From: Plumapathes pennacea
Lineage: Eukaryota; Cnidaria; Anthozoa; Antipatharia; Myriopathidae
Reading direction: 5' to 3'
DNA length: 64,000 bases
NCBI GenBank assembly: GCA_964036295.1
Contig: OZ038469.1
Span: forward strand, 6,774,067 to 6,838,066
The first letter of the stretch is position 1. The number at the start of each line of letters is the position of its first letter. Both the position numbers and the translations under genes were made by a program. The notes under the pieces were generated by a model that was not told the DNA's origin, searched no databases, and saw only the letters and a list, made by a program, of their open reading frames with translations. Positions 62,151 through 64,000 of the stretch are shown piece after piece.

Positions 62151-62249
62151 GTTGTTTAAAAAACAACCCTACACATCTTTTTTCGTACACTGCAAAATTT
62201 GAACTCTTCAGGCCGCAAACTGACGGAGTACCGGGCGGTTTTGTGTGAG

Positions 62250-62261
62250 AAAAATGAAAAA
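62250..62261 (-). terminator. Pol III terminator of 5S rRNA, unit 1
   Basis: On the minus strand, TTTTT runs at 62,257-62,261 and 62,250-62,254 follow the 5S 3' end by 4 and 11 bases. Confidence 0.8.
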
Positions 62262-62265
62262 GGAA

Positions 62266-62287
62266 GCCTACGACACGGGGTATTCCC

Positions 62288-62322
<35 letters not shown>

Positions 62323-62383
62323 CCGGGCTTAACTTCGGTGATCGGACGAGAACCGGTGTTTTCCCGGTGGTATGGTCGTAGGC
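62266..62383 (-). rRNA. 5S ribosomal RNA, unit 1
   Basis: 118 bp reading GCCTACGACCATACCACC ... GTCGTAGGC on the minus strand. The two ends pair to form helix I. The internal Pol III control region is intact (GAAGTTAAGCCCGGTCGG and GTACTTGGATGGGTGACC). Length is normal (~118-120). It is transcribed away from U2, with 186 bp between the two 5' ends. Confidence 0.98.
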
Positions 62384-62569
62384 GAGAGTATTGGCGTCAA
62401 ATTTAGCATGTTATGGCGACTGTCGATTAACGAGAGGAGGCCTGGGACTAAGTGTCTTGCCTCCACATACATGGGGACTTGTGGTGGCCGCGAGGAACTG
62501 GGGGAAAACGAATACCACATGTAGGGAGATTTTGTGGCGGACGGCCACCCTAAGAAACTAGAAGTCGGT

Positions 62570-62760
62570 ATCGCTTCTCGGCCTTATGGCTAAGATCAAG
62601 TGTAGTATCTGTTCTTATCAGCTTAATATCTGATACGCTGCTCATTGAGTGGCTCAAATATTAAACTGATTTTTGGAACTGGGCTGTGGAATAGAGGCTT
62701 GCCTCGTCCCAGCCACGGGTTGTCTCGGTATAGCACTACCTCCGAGTACGGCCCACTCCC
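62570..62760 (+). ncRNA. U2 spliceosomal snRNA, unit 1
   Basis: Starts ATCGCTTCTCGGCCTTATGG, contains the branch-point-pairing GTAGTA, the stem-loop IIa region (CAGCTTAATATCTGATACG), the Sm site GATTTTTGGA, and two 3' stem-loops ending near 62,760. Length ~191 matches U2. Downstream, 'aaaagcaaagaga' (62,777-62,789) resembles the snRNA 3' box. It pairs with intron branch points in the U2 snRNP. Confidence 0.97.
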
Positions 62761-62924
62761 CTCCGGGGGAACCCAATAAAAGCAAAGAGAACATTGAGAT
62801 AAAGGCCTGGGCCCCTAGTGCGTCGGTTCTGGCACACTTTAGCATGCAAGGCGGCATAGAATGGACGCTTGAAAGGGTGGAAGGGTCGTCCCATAAGGAA
62901 GGAAGCGGATGTGCGGTCGGCTCA

Positions 62925-62946
62925 GTTGTTTTGTGGACAAAACAAC
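62925..62946. repeat. Perfect 10-bp inverted repeat just upstream of U1
   Basis: gttgttttgt - gg - acaaaacaac, ending 3 bp before the U1 start. The arm shares GTTGTTT with the palindrome at the unit boundary. Confidence 0.85.
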
Positions 62947-62949
62947 TTC

Positions 62950-63038
62950 ATACTTACCTGACGCGGGAGGTACTGTGATCATGGAGGCAGTCCTCTCAGG
63001 GTGAGGCCCTTTCATTGCACTTGGACTGGGTTGACCCC

Positions 63039-63070
<32 letters not shown>

Positions 63071-63113
63071 TATAATTTCTGGTAGTGGGGACCTGCGTTC
63101 GCGCTCGTCCCCT
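62950..63113 (+). ncRNA. U1 spliceosomal snRNA
   Basis: Starts ATACTTACCTG, the 5'-splice-site pairing sequence complementary to the gtaagt donors used elsewhere in this window. It continues with the stem-loop I phrase (GGGAGGTACTGTGATCATGG), loop II (CCATTGCACTTGG-type, here CATTGCACTTGGACTGG), the Sm site ATAATTTCTGGTAG, and the final GC-rich hairpin TGCGTTCGCGC. Length 164 equals human U1. A 3'-box-like 'ccaaaagaagtaaagaag' follows. Confidence 0.97.
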
Positions 63114-63510
63114 TCCAAAAGAAGTAAAGAAGAAATTAAGAAAAAAAGACGGTGACTAGCATGTCGTGTTTGATTTTGTCTTGCAGCAGAAACGTTGAAG
63201 AAGAAGAAAGGCAAGTGGGGACTAAAAACAAACCATATGTTCATTCACGTGCTCATGTTCACTGTCAATCGTCTGGTACGTGTGACAATTTTTATTTCTC
63301 CCGTTCTGGCGCCTCTTGGTACTTTTTGAACGACTTGTTGGGCTCGAAGTTTAGGTGTTAATGGAACGTTTTATGTTCATTGTTGACAGTGGAACGTGCA
63401 AATTCGTCACAAGGACAAGCGCACGTCCGTGCGCGCGCGTGCGTGCGTGCAAGCGCTTGTCACTTATAATTGCAGAAAAGATCTCGATCTGTGTGATTTT
63501 TTGTTCTTTT
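63114..63510. other. Array spacer between U1 and the next 5S
   Basis: Non-coding. Contains an alternating 'gtgcgcgcgcgtgcgtgcgtgc' tract (~63,429-63,450) that could adopt Z-DNA. No U5, U6 or spliced-leader RNA seen. Confidence 0.6.
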
Positions 63511-63626
63511 GTTGTTTAAAAAAACAACCCTACACATCTTTTTTCGTACACTGCAAAATTTGAACTCTTCAGGCCGCAAACTGACGGAGTACCGGGCGGT
63601 TTTGTGTGAGAAAAATGAAAAAGGAA

Positions 63627-63648
63627 GCCTACGACACGGGGTATTCCC

Positions 63649-63683
<35 letters not shown>

Positions 63684-63744
63684 CCGGGCTTAACTTCGGT
63701 GATCGGACGAGAACCGGTGTTTTCCCGGTGGTATGGTCGTAGGC
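63627..63744 (-). rRNA. 5S ribosomal RNA, unit 2
   Basis: Identical by eye to 62,266-62,383, offset 1,361 bp, with the same T-run terminators. Confidence 0.98.
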
Positions 63745-63930
63745 GAGAGTATTGGCGTCAAATTTAGCATGTTATGGCGACTGTCGATTAACGAGAGGAG
63801 GCCTGGGACTAAGTGTCTTGCCTCCACATACATGGGGACTTGTGGTGGCCGCGAGGAACTGGGGGAAAACGAATACCACATGTAGGGAGATTTTGTGGCG
63901 GACGGCCACCCTAAGAAACTAGAAGTCGGT

Positions 63931-64000
63931 ATCGCTTCTCGGCCTTATGGCTAAGATCAAGTGTAGTATCTGTTCTTATCAGCTTAATATCTGATACGCT
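63931..64000 (+). ncRNA. U2 spliceosomal snRNA, unit 2 (5' 70 nt; truncated by window end)
   Basis: Identical to the first 70 bases of the U2 at 62,570; the rest lies beyond the window. Confidence 0.97.

Follow-up and report, generated by a model that had tools for sequence, protein, structure and literature searches.

Genes for 5S rRNA and spliceosomal RNAs have been found joined in single tandem units in several cnidarians. In Acropora pruinosa they follow one another in the tandem order 5S-ITS1-U2-ITS2-U1-ITS3-5S, and a 1,731-bp cloned probe comprising U1, U2 and flanking 5S sequence marked one locus by FISH; in the A. digitifera genome the order is described as highly consistent across an estimated 423,641 bp, and the linkage in A. 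pruinosa was presented as the first of its type in Cnidaria (PMC8167085). In Favites pentagona, a U2-5S unit is known from an 824-bp clone (PMC9005458). The 5,998-bp repeat of Hydractinia echinata combines five histone genes with 5S, U1, U2 and tRNA-Arg, occurs at least 700 times per haplotype, and its snRNA and 5S genes are transcribed in all stages investigated (PMC5011920). In Solea senegalensis, 5S is linked with U1, U2 and U5 (cited in PMC8167085 and PMC3464664). Across PMC6204057 and PMC3464664, 5S-snRNA linkages are cited for Asellus, Crassostrea and Solea, and linkages of 5S are described as having formed and been lost repeatedly (PMC6204057).

The stretch of DNA analysed here, referred to as the window, is 64,000 nucleotides long. 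Near its right end there very probably begins a tandem array with a unit of about 1.36 kb, in which 5S would be transcribed by Pol III and U2 and U1 by Pol II, and in which all three genes would be homogenised together.

Layout and intactness of the repeat unit

The entire window was scanned with Rfam at gathering thresholds (cut-offs of 38 bits for 5S, 46 for U2 and 69.5 for U1), and all five matches fell within its last 1.75 kb (Table 1). A direct repeat with a spacing of 1,361 bp underlies their arrangement: 5S (−) and U2 (+) stand head to head, U2 and U1 point in the same direction, and the spacers measure 186 bp between 5S and U2, 188 bp between U2 and U1, and 512 bp from U1 to the next 5S. 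About 1.36 units lie inside the window, one complete and the next represented by its first 490 bp; the window ends before the U1 of the second unit, so that a single U1 copy is present. The Rfam matches and the direct repeat thus bear out an earlier note on this DNA, which had read from it a 5S gene head to head with U2, followed by U1, with a period of 1,361 bp.

Table 1. Positions of the repeat units, RNA genes and flanking elements within the window.
Feature	Position	Strand	Basis and remarks
First (edge) repeat unit	62151..63510		1,360 bp; offset comparison with next copy
Second unit	63511..64000		490 bp present, window end inside unit; offset comparison
5S rRNA, unit 1	62265..62383	−	Rfam RF00001, 120.9 bits
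PSE-like CCACATGTA	62515..62523	+	Starts at -55 of U2; candidate identified post hoc
U2 snRNA, unit 1	62570..62761	+	Rfam RF00004, 187.2 bits
3'-box-like sequence after U2, CCAATAAAAGCAAAGAGAACATT	62773..62795	+	Alignment to U1 3' flank
Perfect 11-bp inverted repeat, 2-nt gap	62924..62947		-26 to -3 of U1
U1 snRNA, unit 1	62950..63113	+	Rfam RF00003, 155.6 bits
3'-box-like sequence after U1, CCAAAAGAAGTAAAGAAGAAATT	63115..63137	+	Alignment to U2 3' flank
5S rRNA, unit 2	63626..63744	−	Rfam RF00001, 120.9 bits
U2 snRNA, unit 2, first 70 nt	63931..64000	+	Rfam RF00004, 88.8 bits; 3' end beyond window

At an offset of 1,361, positions 62155-62639 and 63516-64000 are identical at 484 of 485 positions, up to the end of the window. 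The sole difference lies at 62157 and is best read as six versus seven A in an A-run near the unit start. Left of this run the copies agree at an offset of 1,360 back to 62151/63511 and part at 62150, so the array begins at 62151, inside the window, as had been claimed; the edge is 114 bp from the 3' end of the 5S gene. One near-identical unit does combine three RNA genes belonging to two polymerase classes, with 1 of 485 positions differing between the copies. Concerted evolution, also suggested in the earlier note, is the accepted reading for arrays of near-identical repeats, and the evidence for it at this locus is one comparison over 485 positions. Unequal crossing-over and gene conversion would homogenise the three genes together in what may be a long array.

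One full and one partial copy, nearly identical and close to the end of the window, are also what an assembly artefact would leave, whether a chimeric join or a false duplication. We regard this as very improbable: the two copies are not fully identical, and independent work recovered the same gene order, in A. pruinosa through PCR, cloning and FISH and in A. digitifera from the genome (PMC8167085).

Beyond the edge, the left flank did not resolve into a degenerate unit. When 61951-62150 was locally aligned to the unit, 178 of 200 dinucleotide shuffles on the (+) strand and 97 of 200 on the (−) strand scored as well, and for the longer flank 60000-62150 the figures were 50 of 50 and 49 of 50; Rfam found no further copies of the unit elsewhere in the window. 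A 13-mer, AGGAAGGAAGCGG, which ends at 62151 and was noticed by eye both at the left edge and in the U1 promoter, was considered as an edge or promoter relic and is unsupported by the alignments. Directly left of the edge, at 62113-62130, the octamers ATTTGCAT and ATGCAAAT face each other (three and two occurrences, respectively, on the + strand of the window); as a relic of an edge or promoter, this pair found no support from the alignments either.

The complete gene copies (two 5S, one U2, one U1) span their Rfam family models end to end, covering model positions 1-120 in both 5S copies, 1-192 in the first U2 and 1-166 in U1. U1 starts with ATACTTACCTG, as in the RF00003 model, and the region that pairs with the 5' splice site is present. 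Compared with shuffled sequences, the U2 fold is clearly more stable (z = -4.50, 0 of 200 as good) and that of U1 moderately so (z = -2.05, 6 of 200 as good). Within a few bases 3' of the 5S gene lies TTTTT, a T-run of the type that serves as Pol III terminator, and the internal promoter boxes A and C, judged by eye, seem to be present. Pol III would transcribe 5S leftward, starting at an internal promoter and ending in the T-run.

Beyond these genes the unit yielded nothing further. When 50000-64000 was scanned with Rfam at a permissive setting, 35 matches up to E = 1 were returned, five of which were the known genes, and no additional RNA families appeared in the unit spacers. Imperfect short-repeat blocks of the GGATCCTT type at 52299-52549 and 56253-56396 took up 29 weak matches, mostly to microRNA models (52.3-52.5 and 56.3-56.4 kb), and a bacterial sRNA model matched weakly at 59307-59378. 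ARAGORN, at its bacterial setting, found no tRNA in the window. Fifteen ORFs of at least 60 aa overlap 62151-64000, the longest of 102 aa; the ten scanned with Pfam gave no matches, the other five being three second-unit copies and two of 60 aa. The unit accordingly yielded no histone gene, neither by Pfam (10 of the 15 ORFs) nor as an Rfam match to the Histone3 RNA. Elsewhere in the window, an ORF at 39234-40070 (−) encodes, according to Pfam (E 6.1e-39), a zinc finger of the zf-4CXXC_R1 type and is presumably CDCA7-like; 31673-32176 (−) holds a possible reverse transcriptase fragment (RVT_1, 22.8 bits, under the cut-off of 29.6).

A related animal contig among prokaryote records

A U2 pattern run against the genome contigs of prokaryotes matched a single record, JAOZOU010000036.1 (5,648 bp; hereafter L001). 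Exact U2, 5S and U1 patterns found no match each among viral contigs, and a plasmid collection searched in near mode gave none. L001 contains U2 (−), U1 (+), 5S (−) and three histone 3' stem-loops; the three RNA genes lie inside about 1.3 kb, and where they match those of the window, identity is 78-82%. Five ORFs read as H2B, H2A, H4, H3 and H1. Pfam places H2B, H2A and H3 above the cut-off as core histones and H1 as a linker histone. The H4-like ORF, named on the basis of its sequence, reaches 22.9 bits against a Histone cut-off of 26.4 and exceeds the cut-offs of the CENP-T_C and TAF histone-fold models. At bacterial settings ARAGORN detected no tRNA in L001, and the ends of the contig do not overlap. 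The record is titled as a bacterial MAG; what it contains is a histone cluster of animal type with U2, U1 and 5S genes, a case of contamination in public prokaryote data.

Besides its five histone ORFs, L001 differs from the window in the placement of the RNA genes: U2 and U1 stand head to head with 5S beyond U1, whereas in the window U2 and U1 share one direction. Gene order is therefore not conserved between the two. Between U1 and 5S of L001, the spacer carries short repeats (771-1194) with a recurring word, GGGTTAGATCCG, partly at a spacing of 65 bp.

Upstream and downstream regions of the snRNA genes

U2 and U1 would be transcribed rightward by Pol II, each from its own PSE-type promoter, with ends formed by 3'-box processing. 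In L001 the two snRNA promoters resemble each other: CCACATGCAACNNATAAC, located at -55 for U1 and at -54 for U2, agrees at 16 of 18 positions, which none of 300 single-base shuffles equalled. The core found before U2 of the window, CCACATGTA, is also contained in both L001 snRNA promoters, as CCACATGCA, and CCACATG[CT]A occurs once per strand across the 62,150 bases that precede the array. To read this core at -55 of U2 as a PSE is a weak, post hoc suggestion. Window U1 has no clear match to it, and the upstream regions of the window's U1 and U2 do not resemble each other significantly, either over -186 to -1 (equalled by 46 of 500 dinucleotide shuffles) or over -80 to -30 (by 427 of 500); in an 18-base ungapped test of the two promoters, 62 of 300 shuffles did as well. 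The same test between the window and L001 promoters gave 121, 123, 32 and 241 of 300, none of them significant, and the best 18-base stretch between the two U2 genes lies elsewhere than at the CCACATGTA site. A motif score of 58 over all four promoters, compared with 39-45 in 15 single-base shuffles, is high mainly because of the L001 U1/U2 pair. Immediately upstream of the window's U1 stands a perfect inverted repeat (Table 1); such repeats occur at nine merged places in the window, this one included, and six of the nine are AT or GGATCC-type repeats.

The 3' flanks are more alike. A purine-rich motif is common to those of U2 and U1, with only 3 of 500 dinucleotide-shuffled pairs aligning as well, and the sequence after U1 partly resembles the 3' flank of L001 U1, as judged by eye in an alignment. 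We take its position to be that of the vertebrate 3' box. Taken together, the window unit and L001 yield candidates for a PSE core and a 3' box that could be tested in such animals.

The intactness of the genes and their flanks also bears on whether the unit might be a non-functional expansion of pseudogenes, with the working 5S, U1 and U2 genes elsewhere. Corals give some precedent, since insertions in the U2 of F. pentagona led the authors to suggest a pseudogene (PMC9005458) and pseudogenes are discussed for the coral unit (PMC8167085). The complete genes of the window, however, span the whole of their family models, the T-run and the common 3' motif are in place, and the comparable genes of Hydractinia are transcribed in all stages investigated (PMC5011920). 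A pseudogene expansion is accordingly improbable here, and both this reading and that of an assembly artefact are less likely than a functional tandem array. In a functional array, the linkage of 5S, U2 and U1 would probably need no shared transcription mechanism; 5S genes have repeatedly become part of other tandem families.

Comparison with published linkages

The earlier note implied that a triple unit was new, pairwise linkages being those known. This is not borne out, because multi-gene linkages are in print for Acropora, Hydractinia and Solea, with the same order as here in Acropora (PMC8167085) and three-gene linkage also in Hydractinia (PMC5011920). The fish S. senegalensis has 5S linked to U1 and U2, as here, and differs in including U5. 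That linkage with U1, U2 and U5 was reportedly described in Manchado 2006.

In F. pentagona, U2 adjoins 5S as in the window, and its unit was amplified with the same forward primer as that of A. pruinosa (PMC9005458). Unlike the window copy, the Favites U2 carries insertions, and the term "U1 snRNA" has a count of zero in the text of that report. The cnidarian H. echinata, like the window, combines 5S, U1 and U2 within a single tandem unit (PMC5011920), and L001, with its histones, U2, U1 and 5S, resembles the Hydractinia repeat. That repeat includes five histone genes and a tRNA, while the window unit contains no tRNA and gave no Pfam match in 10 of its 15 ORFs. These likenesses could be taken to mean that 5S, U1 and U2 have shared one tandem unit since the cnidarian common ancestor, with or without histones, tying the dosage of ribosomal and spliceosomal RNAs together, and that the units of Acropora, Hydractinia, L001 and the window are its rearranged descendants. 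Such common descent is unlikely; were the linkage ancestral, it would make a test case of what keeps genes read by Pol II and by Pol III joined.

The closest counterpart is the unit of A. pruinosa and A. digitifera (LC557013), with which the window shares the identical three genes in identical order and in tandem (PMC8167085). Its genes run 5S-U2-U1-5S, the arrangement that characterises the Acropora type. The published forward 5S primer finds a site at 62333 with 1 of 20 mismatches, and a site for the A. pruinosa reverse primer ends at 63681 with 3 of 20 mismatches. The product between these primers, 1,731 bp in A. pruinosa, is predicted at 1,349 bp here, and the shortfall of 382 bp presumably lies in the spacers. 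Judging from primer direction, and provided that the order as printed begins with the forward primer, U2 would adjoin the 5' end of 5S in A. pruinosa too. By this measure the window holds the Acropora arrangement in a shorter version; unit length, which differs from that of A. pruinosa, does not define the type. Most likely, then, this is the coral 5S-U2-U1 unit known from Acropora in shorter form, the word coral resting on the match to the literature. While the 5S-U2-U1 linkage as a phenomenon is already in print, what this locus adds to it is a shorter version of the Acropora unit, with one edge of the array sequenced.
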